A stretch of DNA of 64,000 bases from Branchiostoma floridae (Eukaryota; Chordata; Leptocardii; Amphioxiformes; Branchiostomatidae), in NCBI RefSeq assembly GCF_000003815.2, contig NC_049990.1, forward strand, positions 15,253,053 through 15,317,052. Reading direction: 5' to 3'. How positions within the stretch are numbered: the first letter of the stretch is position 1; every line of letters begins with the position of its first letter. The position numbers and the translations under genes are program-made. Of the stretch, positions 18,898 to 47,100 are shown in pieces. The notes beneath the pieces were generated by a model. That model did not search any database, was not told the DNA's origin, and saw only the letters and a list, made by a program, of their open reading frames with translations.

Positions 18898-21800
18898 TCA
18901 ACCAGGCTTCATCAGGGAAAGCAGTCCTGGCCTCAGTGCGCACAGTCCAGGTGTGACAACCGTGCCGATACGGAATGGCATGTCCTGGGACTGGATCTTG
19001 AACGCAACACCCTTCCCTTTCACATCTTCATGGCTCTTGGTTGCGGGACTCTTGTGGTTGCTCTTACCACGGGGGAGCTCTCCGTTCAGCTTCTCGCGGC
19101 TCTCTCCGTTAGAGGTCTTGGCACTTGCGACCTTGGCTTTGGCCAGCTTCTCATGACCATCTCCATGTGGGACTTTCGCGGTGGGGCCATCTCCATGTGG
19201 GTTATCAGCTTTGGCCAGCTTCTTGGGGCCATCTCCGTATGGGTTGTCAGCTTTGGCCAGCTTCTTGGGGCCATCTCCGTATGGGTTGTCAGTTTTGGCC
19301 AGCTTCTTGGCCAAATATCCGTATGAGTTGTTGTTAGCTTTGGCTAGCTTCTTGGCCAAACCTTCGAATGGGTTGTCAGCTTTGGTCAGCTTCTTGGCCA
19401 AATATCCGAATGAGTTGTTGTTAGCTTTGACCAGCTTCTTGGCCAAATCTCCGTATGGGTTGTCAGCTCTGGATAGCTTCTTCACGCTGGTCAGCTTCTG
19501 AAGGCCCTTCTCGTTACCGTCTCCACTGGGGACTTTGGCTTTGACAATCTTCTTGGGGACATCTCCATGTGGGACAACAACTTTGGCCAGCTTAATGCCA
19601 AACTTTCCAGGAGGGAGAATGGCTTTCTTGTTGACTTTGGTCACCTTCTGGTGGCTCTCCCCACTGGGGACGTTTGCTGTGGTCAGCTTGTCGTGGTTCC
19701 CTGCGCTGGGGATCTTGGCTATGGCCAGCTTCTTGGGGCCATCTCTGTATGGGTTATCGGCTTTGACCAGCTTCTTGGGGCCATCTCTGTATGGGTTGTA
19801 AGCGTTAACCATCTTCTTCGCCAAACCTCTGTATGGGTTGTAAGCTTTGACAAGCTTCTTGAGCAGATATCCGTATGAGTTGTTGTTAGCTTTGGCTAGC
19901 TTCTTGGCCAAACCTTCATATGGGTTGTCAGCTTTGGATAGCTTCTTAACGTTGGTCAGCTTCTGAAGGCCCTTCTCGTTGCCGTCTCCACTGGGGACTT
20001 TGGCTTTGACAAGATTCTTGGTGACATCTCCATGTGGTACAACAGCTTTGGTCAGCTTAATGCCAAACTTTCCAGGAGGGAGAATGGCTTTCTTGTTGAC
20101 TTTGGTCACCTTCTGGTGGCTCTCCCCACTGGGGACGTTTGCTGTGGTCAGCTTGTCGTGGTTCCCTGCGCTGGGGATCTTGGCTATGGCCAGCTTCTTG
20201 GGGCCATCTCTGTATGGGTTATCGGCTTTGACCAGCTTCTTGGGGCCATCTCTGTATGGGTTGTAAGCGTTAACCATCTTCTTCGCCAAACCTCTGTATG
20301 GGTTGTAAGCTTTGACAAGCTTCTTGAGCAGATATCCGTATGAGTTGTTGTTAGCTTTGGCTAGCTTCTTGGCCAAACCTTCATATGGGTTGTCAGCTTT
20401 GGATAGCTTCTTAACGTTGGTCAGCTTCTGAAGGCCCTTTTCGTTGCCGTGTCCACTGGGGACTTTGGCTTTGACAAGATTCTTGGTGACATCTCCATGT
20501 GGTACAACAGCTTTGGTCAGCTTAATGCCAAACTTTCCAGGAGGGAGAATGGCTTTCTTGTTGACTTTGGTCACCTTCTGGTGGCTCACTCTGCTGGGAA
20601 CCTTTGCTGTGGTCAGCTTGTCGTGGTTCCATTCGCTGGAGACCTTTGCTGTGGTCATCTTGTCGTGGTTCCCTTCGCTGGGGACCTTTGCTGTGGTCAT
20701 CTTGTCGTGGTTCCCTTCGCTGGGGACCTTTGCTGTGGTCAGCTTGTCGTGGTTCCCTTCGCTGGGGACCTTTGCTGTGGTCAGCTTGTCCTGGTTCCCT
20801 TCGCTGGGGACCTTTGTTGTGGTCAGCTTGTCGTGGTTCACTTCGCTGGGGACCATTGCTGTGGTCATCTTGTCCTGGTTCCCTTCGCTGGGGACCTTTG
20901 CTGTGGTCATCTTCTCCTGGTTCCCTCCGCTGGAGACCTTAGCTGTGGTCACTCCACGGGGATCATTGGTCAGCTTCTGGTGGCCTTCTCGTCTGGAGAC
21001 CGTGGCCTTGGTCAGCTTATCGTGGGCATTACCTCTGGGGACTTTTGCTGCGGCCAGCTTCTCGCTGTCGTCTTCAGTGGGGACTTTGGCTTTGACCAGC
21101 TTCTTGGGGACATCTCTATGTGGGACAACAACTTTGGTCAGCTTAATGCCAAACTTTCCAGGAGGAAGAATGGCTTTCTTGGTGGCTTTGGTCACCTTCT
21201 GGTGGCTCCCCCCGCTGGGGACCTTTGCTGTGGTCAGCTTGTCGTGGTTCCCTTCGCTGAGGACCATTGCTGTGGTCAGCTTGTCGTGGTTCCCTCCGCT
21301 GGGACCTCTGCTGTGGTCAGCTTCTCGTGGTTCCCTCCGCTGGGGACCTCTGCTGTGGTCAGCTTGTTGTGGTTCCCTTCGCTGGGGACCTTTGCTGTGG
21401 TCAGCTTGTCATAGTTCCCTTCGCTGGGGACCTTTGCTGTGGTCAGCTTGTCGTGGTTCCCTTCGCTGGGGACCTTTGCTGTGGTCAGCTTGTCGTGGTT
21501 CCCTCCGCTGGGGACCTTTGCTGTGGTCAGCTTGTCGTGGTTCCCCTCGCTTGGGACCTTTGCTGTGGTCAGCTTGTCATAGTTCCCTTCGCTGGGGACC
21601 TTTGCTGTGGTCAGCTCGTCGTGGTTCCCTCCGCTAGGGACCTTGGCTTTGGCCAGCTTCTCTTGGCCGGCTTCACAACGGGCATTGGCTTTGGTCGACT
21701 TCTCGGCGTCGCCCACTCCACGGGGATCATTGGTCAGCTTCTGGGGGCCTTCTCGTGTGGAGACCGTGGCCTTGGTCAGCTTATCGTGAGCATTACCTCT

Positions 21801-22742
21801 GGGGACTTTTGCTGCGGCCAGCTTCTCGCTGTCGTCTTCAATGGGGAATTTGGCTTTGACCAGCTTCTCGGGGACATCTCCATGTGGGACAACAGCTTTG
21901 GTCAGCTTCATGCCGAACTTTCCAGGAGGAAGAATGACTTTCTTCGTGGCTTTGGTCACCTTCTGGTGGCTCCCCCCGCTGGTAACCTTTGCTGTGGTCA
22001 GCTTGTCGTGGTTCTGGAAGCTGGGGACCTTGGCTTTGACCAGCTTCTTGGGGACATCTCCATGTGGGACAACAACTTTGGTCAGCTTAATGCCGAACAT
22101 TCCGGGAGGAAGAATGACTTTCTTGGTGGCTTTGGTCACCTTCTGGTGGCTCGCCCCGCTGGGGACCTTTGCTGTGGTCAGGCTGTTGTGGTTCCCTCCG
22201 CTAGGGACCTTGGCTTTGGCCAGCTTCTCTTGGCCACAGGGGGCATTGGCCTTAGTCGATTTCTCGGCGTCACCCACTCTACGGGGATCATTGGTCAGCT
22301 TCTGGGGGCCTTCTCGTCGGTGGACCGTGTCTTTGGTCAGCTTATTATGAGAACCTCCACTGAGGATCTTCTTGTTGCCGTCTTCACTGGGGACGTTTGC
22401 TTTGAAAAGCTTCTTGTGGCCATCTCCATTTGGGCTAACAACTTTGGCCAGCTTCTTGCCAAACTTGCCAGGAGAGAGAATGCTATTTATCAGCTTCTCG
22501 TCGATTTCTTTACGGAGAATCGTGACTTTGGTCACCTTCTCGTGGCTCTCTTTACTGGAGACATCGGATTTGTCCATCGATTTGTGGCTCTGACCATACG
22601 GGTCATTGGCTTTGGTCAGATTTACATGGCTCTCTCGACTGGAGACCCAGGCGATCGTCAACTTTTCAAGGCTCTCCTTACCCTGACTACAGATCTTGAC
22701 GACGAGGCTACTCATTACCTTCGGCGCTGTGGAGAGAAACAT
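18898..22742 (-). CDS. Lysine-rich tandem-repeat protein of unknown function (interrupted by one frameshift)
   Basis: Two overlapping minus-strand frames, 21276-22742 (488 aa) and 18898-21267 (789 aa), become one of about 1,280 residues if one base missing near 21300 is restored. At that spot a 42-bp repeat unit reads CTGGGACC instead of CTGGGGACC. The protein is extremely basic, has few Cys and aromatics, and has no recognisable domain. Repeats: about 17-20 copies of SEGNHDKLTTAKVP (14 aa), blocks around PPGKFGIKLTKVVVPHGD, KKLVKADNPYRDGP-type units towards the C-terminus, and a 155-aa higher-order duplication. The upstream ATG at 22742 follows an in-frame stop. A good acceptor (TTTCTCTCCACAG) lies inside the first codons, so this may be a terminal exon starting at 22726 with 5' exons elsewhere. 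Whether the protein is made is uncertain, but the G/C-ending codons favour it. Confidence 0.5.
19503..20600. repeat. 465-bp higher-order repeat inside the lysine-rich frame
   Basis: Blocks beginning with GGCCCTTCTCGTT near 19503, GGCCCTTCTCGTTGCC near 19968 and GGCCCTTTTCGTTGCC near 20433 are spaced exactly 465 bp (155 codons). The second and third blocks are almost identical over their shared length, so the duplication is recent. The period is a multiple of three, which keeps the coding frame. Confidence 0.85.
20590..21640. repeat. 42-bp minisatellite (14 codons) inside the lysine-rich frame
   Basis: The unit GTCGTGGTTCCCTTCGCTGG plus GGACCTTTGCTGTGGTCAGCTT recurs head-to-tail about eight times from 20595-20940 and about nine times from 21190-21640, with a diverged block between. 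Because 42 is a multiple of three, several frames stay open on both strands. Confidence 0.85.
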
Positions 22743-35108: not shown

Positions 35109-38100
35109 TTACTGCGCAGTTATTGTGCTGACGTCACCTATACCTGTGTAATCGTAATCAGCCTCTTCCATGTCTGCTCTGGTCACTCGTCTTACCTCCG
35201 CACTTTCTAACGCGTCATCATCAAACCTATTGACATAAATACATTACAATAGGTTTTTACGATAATCGACACCTATCCTACTGAAATGTATTTTTTTTGA
35301 CATACTGAATAACGTACTTTGCTTACCGAAGAAAACAAAGTAATAAGTATGCCAACCTAAACGTATACATGATTTTTTAGATATGGTTACTGGCAACCTA
35401 AAATTGAAATACATGTGTACAATTCTAGCGGCTTCGTTACTTATGGTTGGCGATTCCTACCCTCATATACATGTATACCATTTTTTTTCAACAGGGCGTT
35501 GCCTGCAAAGTACACAAAGTACACCATATACGTAATGACCACAATGATTTCAGTTTCATGGATGTTCATAAAAGGCTGCATGTTATATATATATATATGT
35601 TCATGCTCTGAAACTTTTGATCTGCGCCCGTTGCGCAAGAGACGAGAACTTCTTGAACACCCTTCGTACATATGTAACGTTAGTTCACCTTTATCCGCAG
35701 GGTTACCTATATTTGTTGCATATAAAAATAGGGTACTAGTATTTGGGGATCGTTAAGTCGATGGAAGGTAGTTTTACATGTTGACATTTGAAACCCACGT
35801 TGTTGACCGGAAATCTCTAAATACCCAGGTTTTTTTTAAAACAACGAATATAGGTTACCCAACGGATTAAGGTGAACTAGCGTTACAGTACAACTCACAC
35901 ATCGTCCTGTCCCGGCATGGTCTCGTCTGCCACCAGCATCTCGTACTCCTCAGCGGCGTACCGCTCCCAGTCAGACATCCCCTCCATATCCTCAGCCTCC
36001 TATCATACACAAGTAACACAAATTCCCTCAGGTTTACAGAAATCTAGTTTCCGTTGCAAACCCCACTGGAAGAATTTGACCATGGGCAGTTTTTCTGATA
36101 GGCAGTTTTCATCAGGTCGGTTAAGAGATCTTGACAAGCAGTCAGAACAAATATCTATCAGAAACCCGCTCGGAGTTGTTCGCAAAACTTCCGGTAGTAC
36201 TCTGCAAAAGACATCTTAGGATATTGGAGTTTTTTATATTTCTTTTTCAGTTAAGTCTCTCCTGCTTAAGTTTCGATGCATATCGGGCATCTTTCTCAGA
36301 GTTTTCACTCCAGCGCTGCATCACGCAAAAGTGCCACCTACATCGGCAACATATGGCAGCCAGAAGCAGCTAGAACTCCAGCCAGAAGCTCTGAGGAAGA
36401 TCTCTGGTAAGCATCAGAACGTAAGCAGGTGAGAAGTAAGTCAGACTGATCCTATGATCTACCGAAATGATGACATTACTTACGGAAGTAGGTTCTTTCC
36501 TAGTAAGTTTAAGTCACCTCCTATGTAGTCAGATATGCCAACGTAAAACCCAGAAATATCAGTGTGTTAACTTTAAATGATTCATTGAACGCTTTGCAGA
36601 AGGAAAATGACTGATATGTTGGCGTAGTTCGTGCAAAAAAATGATTTTCGAACCTTTGCCGCAGCGAATGGATCTCTCTGCTCGTGGTCCAGGTATTTTT
36701 CCAGGTTGAAGAAAGTGTCGAAGAACAACGGCGTCATTCTGCTCTGTTTTAGGTCACGAAGAGATATTTTGCCTGGAGCAAGATGGTTACATGACAACAT
36801 GAGTAAAAGAACCAAGTAAATGAGAATATTGATTGTAGAAACGAAGCTGACATACAAGGGTACGTGTCATGTGGGGACAGGGACATCAGTGACAATGATG
36901 GAAATGCATTAATCAGCACCAAGGACAGGGTCGTCTTGTTGGTGGTGTCGTTCAGGGACAGGAGCACCAGTGACAGTGTAGTTGATGTATCATTCAGCAT
37001 CAAGGACAGGGGTGCCAGTCTTGTTCACGTGTCATGTGGGGACAGTGACATCAGTGACATTGTTGTTAATGTGTCATTCAGCACCAAGGACAGAGGCACC
37101 GGTCTTGTTGGTGTGTTATTCAGGGACACGAGCACCAGTGACAGTGTAGTTGATGTGTCATTCAGCATTAAGGACGGGGGTGCCATTTTTGTTTGTGTGC
37201 CATGTTAGGACATGGCCACCAGTCTTGTTGGTCTATTATATAGGGATAGGGGCACCGTTCTAAGTGATGTACTTGTCAGCACCTGGGACAGAGGCAACAA
37301 TCTTACTTACATGGGTCCGACAGAAAAGCAATCTTAACAATAAATAAGTTATGCAACACAGATTTCGGAGCATAGACACCAGTATAAAGCCTTTTGTAAA
37401 AGTATACCCAACGTGGTAACTCGCCACTTACCAAATGAGTTTCAAAGCGACTTCGCCTGCACATTAATGACTACAATGATGTGAAATTTGGAGGGACTAT
37501 TCATAAAAAAATTCATGCTGAAATATGTCTAGTCTATCTTATTTCTTGGTACAGCTCAGAAGTTATTCATCACCAATAGTAGGTTATTCTATACACATTG
37601 GTACATCGACCGAGATGTTTGATATAGAGTGATGAGAAAAAAATAATTATATGCTGCACCTGGTATTGCTGGATTGATCATGTCCAACATCTGACACAGA
37701 CAGTCTTCGAACGGCATGGGTTCGATCCCCAGGGACACCATCTTATTGTACTGTTCTTCATAGAAGTACTCCAGTTCGTACATGGACAGTAGGCCGTCTC
37801 CGTCCAGGTCCATACACCGGAACCAATACTCTATCCTGAAAAAGACAGATACTGGTAGTTCAGCAGCGCCTCCTAGTGATTGTTTACTGCACCTATTGCA
37901 GTTCAACCCGCATTTGATTTCAAATTCAAATGCTAACTTTTATAAACTCAATGTAGTAAAATTTATACTGTAGAAGGAATTCAGCCCTTTTATGGACTTG
38001 CCTTTGTGCCTCATCAAATCCAGAACCATTGAGTAATAATGAAAAGGTAAATCTGTAATAAGTAAATCTTCAAGTCGCTACATTTTATTACTGTAACAGT

Positions 38101-41100
38101 ATTTTTCCATTGGCGGTAATAGCTGAGAAGACAGACGCAATGCATTACAGTATTTACATGTTCATTTTATTGGGGGCATTTCCCTGACATATTTCGACGA
38201 GCACAAGGAGCTAATGACTGCAACCCTTCCCAGTAGCGTACATGTCGGGTGAGCGAAAACAGCCTGGATTTGAACTTCCAACCTCTTGTTCCATGCAGAT
38301 GCATGCTACGCATGCGCAGGAGCATGCGCGGGTGCCATGGCAAAAGAACAGGAAGAATGTCAGACATACGCTGTTGGGTGTTTCTTGTCTTCTTCCGCCA
38401 GCAGAAACCAGACAAACTCCGTGTAGCTCATCTTGCCTTCGCGAGAAACAGTGCTTCCTCTGGGGAAAACAAACAAACAAACAAATAAACAAACAAACAC
38501 ACATGATTCTTCGATGAAGGTCAATCATCCAGGTTTTCATATACACAAGAAATAGAACAGTTGTCTAAGCAACTCGATATGATTTTGGAAACAGACGTTT
38601 TAGGCAGTATCCAATGAAAAAATACAAATTTGTACAACTTGAACTACAATGCTCCGAAACTGAGTCTGTATTAGATGGTACACGGAAGCTCTGACCCTTT
38701 TCAAAATTTATCCAGTAGAGTAACATCAATCTTGCGTAAACAAACAAAAAGTTCGAATTGTTTTAATCGTATGGAATGATATTATGACATGAACTTCGTT
38801 CATTCAGCTCAAATGAGAAACCAGAACTGCAGCTGTATCGATCGATTGACCTGTCAATCAATTGATCAATCAGCCAATCAAGTGACGTACCTTGTCACCG
38901 CTCCAGAGAATATTCTTTCCGCCATCCGAGACGATATTGCTGTGGTCGTCAACAAACGAAATGAAGATTAGTTAATATTCTAACTTCACATTTTTAGCCT
39001 ACATCATTGTCTTTTTATGGTCGCTGGATATCATAGTTCTGGATGACTAACTTTGTCTGCTCCACTCACACGAGGATGAACGATGATGATGATGATGATG
39101 GATATCCGAAATCTATGATAGAAAACAATATACATGTACACATTGCATGCGAATGTTGAGAGAGATGTTATGTATGTACTGATAGCAGTATAAAACACAG
39201 TTTAATATTTGCAATAGAATATTGTGACTGATAAATGCTAACGTCAACCAAATAATTTATGATGATCAACTTTTCGCTGTTTTACTGTCAGTGGCACAAA
39301 CGTAGCTACTTTTGATATACCGTAGTATGGAAAATTATATTTCCTGTTCACATACTTTGAATTGTCTGCCTGTTTGTTTATTTTTGTTTGTTTGTTTGTT
39401 TACTCACCACCATCGTTATGTCTAGCCAGGTCCTGCTGGCTGATAAACAAGTCGTGGTCCGTGTCCAGCTCCCAGAATTTGCAGTAGATGACGTAGAAAT
39501 GCTCGTACGAGAAGAAGTCTGTGATCTGGTTGATGTCGTCTTCCTCTTCTAAAGACGAAATTACCTACAGCGGTGATCATCCGTGAATTGAAATTTAGAT
39601 ATGTTGCAGCATTATAATTGTAAAATCATTGTCTTTGTATGTATTGCTTTCGTCAGTATCTAGTAAGACTACAAAATAATGTATACATTTCATTATGTGT
39701 GCGTTGTACACATCTTACATCCTTATAAATAGGAAGGCCCTAATAGCAATAAACCAATGACGTCATAGCTTTCTTGCCAATCAGAGCGAGCCAAGTTTAC
39801 ACAGGAAACAAGCCTGATTTACAATCACATATAAAGAAGTTAATTTGTAAGCTGACCTGTAATAGGTTGGACCTGCGGAGTTCCGGGATGCTAATTTGTC
39901 CAGACCAGGACCTGTTGACAGTGTAGAATATCCGGGCGATGACCTGAGAGGATGGAGGGAACGTAGAACAAAAAGTGAGTGTAGGAGATGAGCACGCATA
40001 TAGATGTAGACGTTTTTTCTGGAGGTGCACACTTTGTATATGCAGTTATCCGACTGGTGTGGGGTAGTGTGACGTGTTCGGCTCTAGGTTTGAATCCTGT
40101 CATGCTACTGATCCTGTGCCCTTAGAAAAGGCACTTTATTTACGACTTTCCACACAGGTGTAAACATAGGTTAAAAAGTGGTGGCAGGAGAGGGATTGGC
40201 TCCACCTTCTAATATCGTAACCTAGACACAGTGGATAACAACCCACTACCACTACGATCTCAGAAAAAGCTATGAGGCTCCCTTTACCTTTGTGTACATG
40301 TACTTTTACCCGACTGTCCAGAATAACTTACTAATAGGCAAATTCTAGTACGCAAAAAACATGCAAGACTGTTACATCTCCTTGGAGATATGAGTTAGAA
40401 ATGGAAGGACTGGTGGAGACGGCGATGGCAACAGTCATTCGATATGCTATTTTTTTTCCATTTGTTGAGTAAAATATACAATGTACCAAAAAGCTCAGAT
40501 AGCAATATACAATAATACATGGCTAGATTAAAGCTACAGTCAGGTTTCCACACCGATACCCCTTCGCCGCGGGTAGTTTATGGGCAAAAGTAAGAAAAAG
40601 CAGGTTAACTATCCGATCCATCATCAGTTTGGAAATGTGAATGTAGCAAGACTGTGAAGGCGTTTGTATTGGTTGTTCTGTACACATGAGTCGAAAGGTG
40701 GCGTGTCTGACATGACTTACTGTATGAAGGTACCCGGAGTAAAATTCTGCACACATGAATGAAGGTGGCGTGTCTGACATGACTTACTGTGTGAAGGTAC
40801 CTGGAGTGGAATTCTGCACACACGAATGAAGGTGGCGTGTCTGACATGACTTACTGTGTGAAGGTACCTGGAGTGGAATTCTGCACACATGAATGAAGGT
40901 GGCGTGTCTGACATGACTTACTGTGTGAAGGTACCTGGAGTGGAATTCTGCACACATGAATCGAAAGGTGGCGTGTCTGACATAACTTACTGTATGAAGG
41001 TACCTGGAGTGGAATTCTGCACACATGAATGAAGGTGGCGTGTCTGACATGACTTACTGTATGAAGGTACCTGGAGTGGAATTCTGCACACATGAATCGA

Positions 41101-44100
41101 AAGGTGGCGTGTCTGACATGACTTACTGTATGAAGGTACCTGGAGTGGAATTCTGCACACATGAATCGAAAGGTGGCGTGTCTGACATGACTTACTGTAT
41201 GAAGGTACCTGGAGTGGAATTCTGCACACATGAATGAAGGTGGCGTGTCTGACATGACTTACTGTATGAAGGTACCTGGAGTGGAATTCTGCACACATGA
41301 ATCGAAAGGTGGCGTGTCTGACATGACTTACTGTATGAAGGTACCTGGAGTGGAATTCTGCACACATGAATCAAAAGGTGGCGTGTCTGACATGACTTAC
41401 TGTATGAAGGTACCTGGAGTGGAATTCTGCACACATGAATGAAGGTGGCGTGTCTGACATGACTTACTGTATGAAGGAAGAAGGAAGAAGGGAGAAGGAA
41501 GTATCCGAAGATTTTGAAGTTTGCACCTTTCTATTCCTTACTAAGGGAGCTTTCCAATGATACCACGTGTGCCAGGCCGGAACTTCAAGCCTAAGCTACA
41601 ATCGCGACATTAACTCATCACCCTACAGGGTGCCGTGACTGGCGGGGTCTCAAGAAAGGAGCTAGCGGTTGCGCCTAAACAGGGTCCGTATACTCATGAA
41701 TATCTCGAGAAGGAAGTACCCGAAGATTTGGCGGTTTGCACCTTTCTATTCCTTACTAAGTGAGCTTTCCAATGATACCAAGTCTGCCAGGCCGGAACTT
41801 CAAGCCTAAGCTACAATCGCGACATTAAGTCATCACCCTACAGGGTGCCGTGACTGGCGGGGTCTCAAGAAAGGAGCTAGCGGTTGGGCCTAAACAGCGG
41901 CCATAAGGTCGAAAATATCTCGAGAAGGAAGTATCCGAAGATTTTACGGTTTGCACCTGTCTATTCCTTAATAAGGGAGCTGTCCAATGATACCAAGTCT
42001 GCCAGGCCGGAACTTCAAGCCTAAGCTACAATCGCGACATTAATTCATCACCCTACCCGGTGCCGTGGCAGGCGGGGTCTCAAGAAAGAAGCTAACAGTG
42101 TCCGTATACTCAAGAATATCTCGAGAAGTAAGTATCCGAAGATTTTGCGGTTTGCACCTTTCTATTCCTTACTAAGGGAGCTTTCCAATGATACCAAGTC
42201 TGCCAGGCCGGAACTTCAAGCCTAAGCTACAATCGCGACATTAAGTCATCACCCTACAGGGTGCCGTGACTGGCGGGGTCTCAAGAAAGGAGCTAGCGGT
42301 TGCACCTAAACAGGGTCCGTATACTCAAGATTATCTCGAGAAGGAAGTATCCGAAGATTTCGCGGTTTGCACCTTTCTATTCCTACTAAGGGAGCTTTTC
42401 AATGATACCAAGTCTGCCAGGCCGGATCTTCAAGCCTAAGCTACAATCGCGACATTAAGTCATCACCCTACCCGGTGCCGTGACTGGCGGGGTCTCAAGA
42501 AAGGAGCTAGCGGTTGCGCCTAAACAGGGTCCGTATACTCAAGAATATCTCGAGAAGGAAGTATCCGAAGATTTGGCGGTTTGCACCTTTCTATTCCTTA
42601 CTAAGGTACCTTTCCAATGATACTAAGTGTGCCAGGCCGGAACTTTAAGCCTAAGCTACAATCGCGACATTAACTCATCACCCTACTGGGTGCCGTGACT
42701 GGCGGGGTCTCAAGAAAGGAGCTAGCGGTTGCGCCTAAACAGGGCCCATACGGTCGAGAATATCTCGAGAAGTAAGCATCCGAAGATTTTGCGGTTTGCA
42801 CCTTTCTATTCCTTACTAAGGGAGCTTTCCAATGATACCACGTGTGCCAGGCCGGAACTTCAAGCCTAAGCTACAATCGCGACATTAACTCATCACCCTA
42901 CCCGGTGCCGTGGCAGGCGACGTCTCAAGAAAGGAGCTAACGGTTGCTCCTTAACAGGGTCCGTATACTCAAGAATATCTCGAGAAGGAAGTATCCGAAG
43001 ATTTTACGGTTTGCACCTTTCTATTCCTTACTAAGGGAGCTTTCCAATGATACCAAGTCTGCCAGGCCGAAACATCAAGCCTAAGCTACAATCGCGACAT
43101 TAAGTCATCACCCTACCCGGTGCCATGACAGGCGGGGTCTCAAAAAAGGAGCTGGCGGTTGCGCCTAAACAGGGTCCGTATACTCAAGAATATCTCGAGA
43201 AGGAAGTATCCGAAGATTTTGCAGTTTGCACCTTTCTATTCCTTACTAAGGGAGCTTTCCAATGATACCACGTGTGCCAGGCCGGAACTTCAAGTCTTAC
43301 TTGGAATCGCGTTTTTAAGTCATCGCCCTACCCGGTGCCGTGACAGCTCGGCTCTCAAGAAAGTAGCTAGCGGTTGCGCCTAAACAGGGTCCGTATACTC
43401 CACAATATCTCGAGAAGGAAGTATACGAAGATTTTGCGGTTTGCACCTTTCTATTCCTTACTAAAGGGAGCTTTCGAATGAAACCAAGTGTGCCAGGCCG
43501 GAAGTTTAAGTCTAAGCTACAATTGCGACATTAAGTCATCACCCTACCCGGTGCCGTGGCAGGCGGGGTCTCAAGGAAGGAGCTAGCGGTTGCGCCTAAA
43601 CAGGGTCCGTATACTCAAGAATATCTCGAGAAGGTAGTATCCGAAGATTTTACGGTTTGCACCTTTCTATTCCTTACTAAGGGAGCTCTCCAATGATACC
43701 AAATTTGCCAGGCCGGAACTTCAAGCCTAAGTTGGAATCGCGTTCTTAAGTCAACACTCTAGCCGGTGCCGTGGCAGGCGGGGTCTCAAGAAAGGAGCTA
43801 GCTGATGCGCCTAAACAGGGTCCGAATACTCAAGAATATCTCGAGAAGGAAGTATCCGAAGATTTTGCGGTTTGCACCTTTCTATTCCTTAGTAGGGGAG
43901 CTTTTTAATGATACCAAGTCTGCCAGGACCGGAACTTCAAGCCTAAGCTACAATCGCGACATTAAGTCATTACCCTACCCGGTGCCGTGACAGGCCGGGT
44001 CTCAAGAAAGGAGCTAGCGGTTGCGCCTAAACAGTGTCCGTATACTGAAGAATATCTGGAGAAGGAAGTATCCGAAGATTTTGCGGTTTGCACCTTTCTA

Positions 44101-47100
44101 TTCCTTACTAAAGGAGCTCTCAATTGATACCAAGTCTGCCAGGCCGGAACTTCAAGCCTAAGCTACAATCGCGACATTAAGTCATCACCCTACCCGGTGC
44201 CGTGACACGCCGGGTCTCAAGAAAGGAGCTAGCGGTTGCGCCTAAACAGGGTCCGTATACTCAAGAATATCTCGAGAAGGAAGTATCCGAAGATTTTGCG
44301 GTTTGCACCTTTCTGTTCCTTACTAAGGTACCTTTCCAATGATACCACGTGTGCCAGGCCGGAACTTCAAGCCTAAGTTACAATCGCAACATTAAGTCAT
44401 CACCCTACCCGGTGCCGTGACAGGCGGGGTCTCAAGAAAGGAGCTAACGGTTGCGCCTGGAGTGGAATTCTGCACACATGAATGAAGGTGGTGTGTCTGA
44501 CATGACTTACTGTGTGAAGGTACCTGGAGTGGAATCCTGCACACATGAATGAAGGTGGCGTGTCTGACATGACTTACTGTGTGAAGGTACCTGGAGTGGA
44601 ATTCTGCACACATGAATGAAGGTGGCGTGTCTGACATGACTTACTGTGTGAAGGTACCTGGAGTGGAATTCTGCACACATGAATGAAGGTGGCGTGTCTG
44701 ACATGACTTACTGTGTGAAGGTACCTGGAGTGGAATTCTGCACACATGAATGAAGGTGGCGTGTCTGACATGACTTACTGTGTGAAGGTACCTGGAGTGG
44801 AATTCCTGAGCTTCCTGTAAGAATGTCAGTCCCGGGTGGGTGTCTATAACATCCTGGAATTAAAGAACACATCAAAAGATATCCTTATAAGCATAGACTA
44901 GCATACTCTATTTCAAACTGGTACCCTTCTCGAAAGAAAGGAGCTATTTAATGAGTTTGCTAAATTTTACCTTGATTTTTGTCAACGTTTACGACAAAAA
45001 GTATTATCCTTTACCATCACAAACCCACACTTTACAGGAAAGGTAGGATCGTTCCTCTTGTATTGTCTCAGGAAAAGAAGTTGATACCAATAAGTTAGAA
45101 TTCAGTGTTAGCTTTTAGTCTATAGAAGTCACTTGCTACATGTATATTGTTCTACACTATATGTCGCAAATAGCGTCAATTTGCAATAAACTTATCAGTA
45201 TTTAATTTACATTAAATGGTCGTTTCATCGTATACCAGGCTTTTCTTCTAGTCTAACTTACTTGTTCTCAGATTATGACTTCCAATTCACTGACTATGGT
45301 AACCATGAGTACAGGTACCTGTATAAGTGGCACGAAGTCGTCTGCTGTAAGGTAGCTTCCCTTCATCCGGGTCATGATAGCCATGAAGCGTGAGTAGTCG
45401 TCATGGTACTTCTGGATTATTCTGAATCAGGAGGACAAAATTTTTAATATGTACTGAGTGACGTGTGTACTGAATATGAAGTCATTTATTATAGTTGGAA
45501 TATAGGTTTCCCTCATTAGCTATGCAAATCAAATCCTAATATATATAATTTGCATTATTAAAATACCATCGCCTTGGTCTTCGTCAAAGTTGCCTACAAA
45601 ATCACGACATTTCATTCTTCCTTCCTTGACTTAACAAAGTATCAAAACAAAGTATCAAAACAATCTATGCAGGCATTCTCGATGTCTCGAGTGATAGACG
45701 AACAAAGGGACAGACACACATAAGAACGCTCCGGACGAAGGTACTACTAGCAACACTGGTTGCACCATGTTAAAGAAATAGTAGATGATACAGGCTATTC
45801 TTTCTTTTGGAACACCAACTACCCTACATTAGACAAGAATAATATATGGACATTGTTAAAGAGAAGACTTACTGATATGTATGCTCAAACGTTTTTTCTT
45901 CAACTGTACTTAAAGATTTTACAAAAGCGTTTGACATTCGACATTCACTCTGACCTTTTCCACAAGGGTTGGAAGGAAGCGGAAGTGACGCAGCCCAGCT
46001 TGTCTCCTCCTGCTGCCAGAAATAACGGTCCTTTCCAGTACAGGGGACAGTTACACACCTGCATACATTATCAGGTAAGCAGATTTAAACATGTTACACC
46101 ATGTAGCATTTCCATGTAGAAAACGGTTGAACTATATTGCTAATAGCTAACAATCTTATTAGTCCATGGCATCCCAAATTTCACATATCGGTACCCTCCG
46201 GGGTGGCAAATTCTCCTTGCTATTTTTGAATACTAAGTAGTAGAAGGCCTGTAATCATTTAGGTGTTGATAGGTTTGAAGGATGAAAGCCGGTAGAAAGC
46301 TACCATATCAGAATGATCCAGATTGGCTATCACATCAAATTACATGCCACAGGCCTTCTACTATTCAAAAATAACAAGGAGAATTTGCCATCCCGGAGGT
46401 ACCGATTTTTCCTATGGCCCACGGACTATAAAGGACTATAAATCTACTTGATGAATAACGGTGAAGAAAATTTAGCCATACATACTACTGACACTTTAGA
46501 ACATGGTGATACCGGTATGTTGCAGGTATATATTAAAACAGGGTAGGATAATACCATATTGACTAACTCTGTCTTTGTATGACGTAATTATGGTATCGTA
46601 TCGGTTTTATATAGAATAGACTGTAACATTACGTTTATCGGACAACTGTGAAGTGCAAGTCGTTTTCAATATCATTATGGCATGTCATCTACAGTATTTC
46701 ATTAGTCCATTGTAAAGATGAACCGTAAGAAATTAAAGTGAACTTTCAAAGAAAATACAGGGCATTTAAAAAAAAATCGTTGGCCTTAATTTTCGCGGCT
46801 TTAATTGTTATGTTGTACCTGATATGATTCGGCAAATAATTTCATCTCCTATCACTCAAGCCTAAGTTGTGAAATTCAAAACACAAATGTGTATTTTGAT
46901 TTTATTATCAAGCATTGCAAAATCTCTTGATACAATAATGAAGACGACACATTTTATCATTCCCTTGTATTTAATATTTACCAACCTTTGCTATTTCTCC
47001 AAAATCACTCTTGAACGCTTTCCCCTCCTTCAACGTCCCGAAGACCTCGGACACTTTCTTCAGCTCTTTGCCGTCCTCGGACACTGGCTGACCGAGGGGG

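Follow-up and report, generated by a model that had tools for sequence, protein, structure and literature searches.

Among the closest described systems is a mirage in the Adh3 gene of amphioxus, which was reportedly described by Canestro et al. in 2002. Minisatellite-like duplications of exon-intron boundaries are described under the same name in the amphioxus globin genes BflGb6 and BflGb9, in a paper whose available text takes the term "mirage" from the 2002 Adh3 study, cites that study for somatic instability and refers to further loci with similar structures (PMC3087553). The mirage of PGBD5 is added, and that of troponin C cited, in the available part of a further paper (PMC3902484). According to the first of these sources, RT-PCR data for Adh3 and the globins suggest that regular splicing is undisturbed, with cryptic use of the copies being possible, and mirages are proposed as a route to new introns (PMC3087553); the statement on PGBD5 splicing is an inference, with no mRNA across the repeats reported in the available text (PMC3902484).

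The window analyzed here, the whole stretch of 64,000 nt of the Branchiostoma floridae genome (NC_049990.1, positions 15,253,053 to 15,317,052), encodes on its minus strand PPP2R3, an EF-hand protein that serves as B'' subunit of PP2A. Intron 5 of this gene (4835 nt; Table 1) holds an array that is a real new amphioxus mirage, unusual for the satellite nested in it. The identity of the gene follows from the comparison of three joined exons with PP2A B'' alpha (PDB 4i5j, which we take to be PR72; E 3.2e-33) and from a match to Pfam EF-hand_13 (3.1e-34) that lies within the first 96 residues of the hand-spliced query. Across the junction of exons 5 and 6 (SRYLHT/VIARIF), the protein is gap-free and colinear with PDB 4i5j. 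Exon and intron numbers are those of the initial annotation; five open reading frames near the locus gave nothing at E 0.01 against Pfam.

Table 1. The array in PPP2R3 intron 5 and the exons that flank it (positions in the window, listed in the direction of transcription)
Feature	Position	Strand	Description and basis
PPP2R3 exon 5	44853-44779	-	75 nt; last 27 nt = exonic part of the repeat unit; homology to PDB 4i5j
Proximal 67-bp array	44456..44805	-	TRF: x 5.2, 98% matches
Authentic intron 5 donor GTAAGT	44773..44778	-	Protein colinearity across the junction
215-bp satellite array	41492..44458	-	TRF: x 13.9; fills the 3-kb gap between the 67-bp blocks
CT-rich join of the satellite and the distal 67-bp array	41473..41501	-	GAAGGAA, period 7, on the + strand
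Distal 67/69-bp array	40676..41477	-	TRF: 67-bp x 11.8, 96% matches; 12 donors (41467 to 40720)
Terminal acceptor-like TGTGTACAG	40686-40678	-	Follows the final copy and lacks exon sequence; marks where the array ends on the right
PPP2R3 exon 6	39943-39857	-	Acceptor CATCCTCTCAG; colinear with PDB 4i5j

The repeat unit, 67 bp in length (69 bp in the long copies), joins the end of exon 5 and its GTAAGT donor to about 40 nt of intron sequence. The initial annotation had recognized such a tandem array in intron 5, with five copies abutting the exon and twelve about 3 kb further; the TRF arrays, both of which far exceed chance, and the identity of the unit with the exon bear this out, the five proximal donors including the authentic one. 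The proximal block comprises the authentic copy, four decoy units (donors 44711, 44644, 44577 and 44510) and, at its end near 44456, a donor-less half unit that breaks off at CCAGG. A higher-order period of 205 bp (67+69+69) is present in part of the distal block. The GTAAGT is retained by every copy (17/17), as had been stated; "about 17 decoy donors", however, overcounts by one, since the 17th is the authentic site. The claim that each copy forms a 26-nt micro-exon between an AG and a GT holds for 15 of the 16 decoys, the exception being the copy with donor 41467, in which a CT-rich stretch replaces the AG and most of the exon part; TGTGTGCAG followed by 26 nt precedes 15 of the 17 donors, and the authentic copy carries GCTCAG in its place. 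The sequence of the exon unit recurs without any change in five decoys, two of which lie past the satellite, and the most diverged copy, once the truncated 41467 is set aside, is the last one (40720). The locus thus combines what characterizes mirages, namely a tandem unit of minisatellite size that spans an exon-intron boundary, the authentic boundary as the edge copy, and AG/GT signals in many of the copies.

Like the mirages of Adh3, the globins, troponin C and PGBD5 as described in the available texts, the PPP2R3 array repeats an exon-intron border in tandem with a unit of minisatellite size, AG and GT being present in many copies (PMC3087553; PMC3902484). It differs from them in several respects: there are 17 donors in a single intron, the unit repeats a donor border whereas that of Gb6 repeats an acceptor border, and the array is split by a block of 215-bp satellite, a feature absent from the available descriptions of the published mirages. 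Regular splicing is reported or inferred to be undisturbed in the published cases, and the same may apply to PPP2R3, the protein of which is colinear across the junction. The view of the initial annotation that such a minisatellite is unusual may hold for animals generally, but in amphioxus there are published precedents. Human internal tandem repeats at exon-intron borders are comparable minisatellites, able to alter splicing or to generate new introns; as far as their available description goes, these are variable repeats in genes within segmental duplications, whereas the PPP2R3 array appears to be confined to the intron (PMC2812944). In intron gain by tandem genomic duplication, the duplication is also proposed to carry splice signals (PMC4974935, available part); by contrast, the PPP2R3 array supplies potential sites only, and no new intron is shown. 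Among the papers listed by a literature search that ranks by the number of matching terms, there was no report of this PPP2R3 locus.

In our assessment, with a probability of about 0.82, the array is a neutral amphioxus mirage minisatellite that has taken in a block of satellite and whose decoys are ignored by the spliceosome. The exon is the source of the unit, given that the solved B'' alpha chain shares the conserved EFHSRY, and the origin that the initial annotation proposed, from a founder unit across the exon-intron border, is right. A 403-bp query containing the exon end and the proximal array gave five matches in the 513-Mb genome, all within C12:15293728-15297912, in a search that passes over very common words; a dispersed 67-bp element was rejected on this result, with the same proviso on common words, and no second copy of the locus was found in this search of one assembly. 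At the join of the units, GAA is common to the exon edge ctcagGAAttcc and the intron edge tacaGAAcaacc, the joint being gtgcaGAAttcc, so that it might have served as a 3-bp microhomology, although so short a match is weak evidence. A segment of about 67 bp across the exon 5 donor would have been duplicated in tandem, perhaps at this microhomology, and the array would have grown by unequal exchange or slippage, followed by homogenization.

The 3-kb spacer between the two blocks, the nature of which the initial annotation overlooked, is a 215-bp tandem array. Its flanks resemble the two halves of one 67-bp unit, which stops at CCAGG on one side and resumes at CTTCATACAG after the CT-rich stretch on the other, from which we infer that the two 67-bp blocks were formerly continuous. 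The 215-bp sequence represents an abundant family of tandem satellites: the genome search (558 first-look candidates, 12 of them scored) yielded 155 matches, and those listed all fall either in this C12 intron or in islands on C5, near 6.08, 9.30-9.32, 10.05-10.06, 10.09-10.10 and 10.20-10.25 Mb. For 12 of the 13 units of the block, the nearest neighbor is a C5 unit, although the pools compared, 12 other block units versus 95 distinct C5 units, bias the outcome toward C5; the mean identity of the block units is 0.897 within the block and 0.906 to C5. This pattern suggests that the satellite was brought in as a multi-unit piece, the larger C5 pool being a caveat, and growth of the block in place from one unit is less likely given that its units are, on average, no closer to each other than to those on C5, with the same pool bias. 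Already diverged 215-bp units would then have arrived as a block between the CCAGG and the CTTCATACAG of a single 67-bp unit, splitting the array. A mobile element with fixed ends is not favored as the source. Among the 13 C5 stretches fetched, four had a usable edge, located with a precision limited by BLAST; the 5' edges lie at unit positions 205, 92 and 215 and the 3' edges at 167, 25 and 183 (215 and 183 in the window), so that the edges are not constant, yet two of each three are within 10-16 nt of one another. None of the papers listed by the literature search was titled on an amphioxus satellite.

Normal splicing would join the first donor, at 44778, to exon 6, and the decoys would most likely be passed over: exon definition needs more than 26 nt of exon, and the introns between adjacent copies would measure only 41 or 43 nt (108-112 nt between copies two apart). 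These lengths do not exceed 43 nt, the shortest of three sizes (43, 49 and 56 nt) for which splicing of human introns is reported (PMC4463651, available part). This silence of the decoys does not go unopposed: the local context of the authentic and decoy donors is nearly alike, the main difference being the upstream exon, of 75 versus 26 nt, and no local feature accounts for the first donor winning. Furthermore, if exon 5 were joined to the second decoy, the intron removed would have a spliceable length of 108 nt. Had a single micro-exon been included, the frame would be shifted, as the initial annotation maintained, with no stop within exon 6; two would lead to a stop in exon 6, but with three the frame is restored and stop-free. 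When the decoy donors are instead taken as ends of an extended exon, 14 of the 16 extensions run into an internal stop; extension to 44711 brings a stop in exon 6, whereas extension to 44644 meets no stop before exon 6 ends.

These stops give some substance to the idea that low-level use of the decoys, through isoforms subject to nonsense decay, sets PPP2R3 output, with copy number tuning expression, and so do the intactness of all the donors, the AG-26-GT form of nearly all decoys and the stop that two micro-exons produce. We consider this improbable, however. The six unvaried donor positions require no selection to explain them (P 0.37 with 9 variable columns, and 0.29-0.37 over other counts), so that selection keeping the donors intact was rejected as a candidate, the invariance of GTAAGT being not significant (P about 0.3-0.4). 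The short introns within the array also speak against decoy use, as do the Adh3 and globin data, which are said in the available text to suggest undisturbed splicing (PMC3087553). Still less credible, indeed next to negligible, is the idea that the array titrates U1 snRNP, a possibility raised by the initial annotation, or slows the removal of intron 5: many near-equal donors are indeed gathered within one 4.8-kb intron, but the unit forms only a modest duplex with U1 (-5.6 kcal/mol, compared with -8.0 for the donor of the preceding exon and -7.4 for that of the following one), and the abundance of U1 far exceeds 16 sites per transcript. Titration is thus unsupported, as is any regulatory role for the array. 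A special RNA fold was also rejected, 201 nt (three units) giving a z of -0.09, with 91 of 200 shuffles folding as well. In each 67-bp unit, the CACACA at the exon end is complementary to TGTGTG on the acceptor side (for example, at 44741-44784); these motifs could pair a donor with the next acceptor, while the overall fold is not significant.

It is very unlikely that an assembly artefact accounts for the repeat or for its copy number. Published mirages do vary by haplotype or assembly, with 2 versus 7 and 3 versus 6 copies in PGBD5 and 6 versus 3 in Gb6 according to the available texts (PMC3087553; PMC3902484), and the copy number given here depends on one assembly, but the copies carry ordered variants (C/T, short/long), their flanks are clean and 39600-46200 contains zero N. 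We would give somewhat more room, while still regarding it as doubtful, to concerted evolution of the intronic array and the coding end of the exon. Given the five decoys that equal the exon unit, variants of the array, such as CAC/CAT, which is silent for histidine, may reach the coding sequence by conversion. Were this true, the inclusion of three micro-exons, in frame and stop-free, would offer a ready route to a new exon. The best reading remains the fallback of the initial annotation, a silent repeat of real origin, and the PPP2R3 mirage would most likely be without effect on splicing.

When globin exon loci were run through the same pipeline, a mirage was recovered at one of nine. At L056 954-1601 (L056 lies on C18), a 158-bp x 4.2 array covers the exon's 5' edge and is consistent in unit length and position with the published BflGb6; no array like the 157-bp mirage published for BflGb9 was found among the nine loci, which may not include BflGb9. 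Short arrays lie near the globin exon match at L051, L052 and L054, beginning past a donor-like GTAAGT at the exon end in L052 and preceding the exon in L054. Arrays were counted over the window, L007, L041-L047 (arbitrary places rather than random draws) and the nine globin loci, L006 consisting of N, and the mirage rate of 1/9 is claimed for the globin loci only, L007 and L041-L047 being without exon annotation. The latter eight hold seven arrays with a unit of at least 20 bp in about 76 kb (mean unit 37 bp), and the mean unit over all counted loci, the window included, is 80 bp. If exon edges occur about once per 1.5 kb, some one to three thousand arrays would overlap an exon edge in 513 Mb through random placement, so that on this rough neutral estimate the genome could hold a thousand mirages or more; the sample being small and arbitrary, the figure is a guess to within an order of magnitude. 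Copies would survive where they fall on the intron side and the first donor stays in use, and the observed pattern agrees with this. In the kinase search, most matches among those listed fall in long open frames. Elsewhere in the window, TRF detected large nested tandem arrays of 42, 126, 180 and 465 bp at 19189-22229, which may be coding since the unit length of 42 bp is divisible by three; an 84/168-bp array at 36862-37193, in the PPP2R3 region, lies near but, judged by eye, apparently not over an exon edge.

Two unrelated tandem repeats are thus nested in one intron of PPP2R3. The locus provides a natural test of splice-site choice, with 17 near-alike donors among which only the one with the full exon should be used, and it adds a many-copy example to the amphioxus mirages, a proposed source of new introns according to the available text of PMC3087553.
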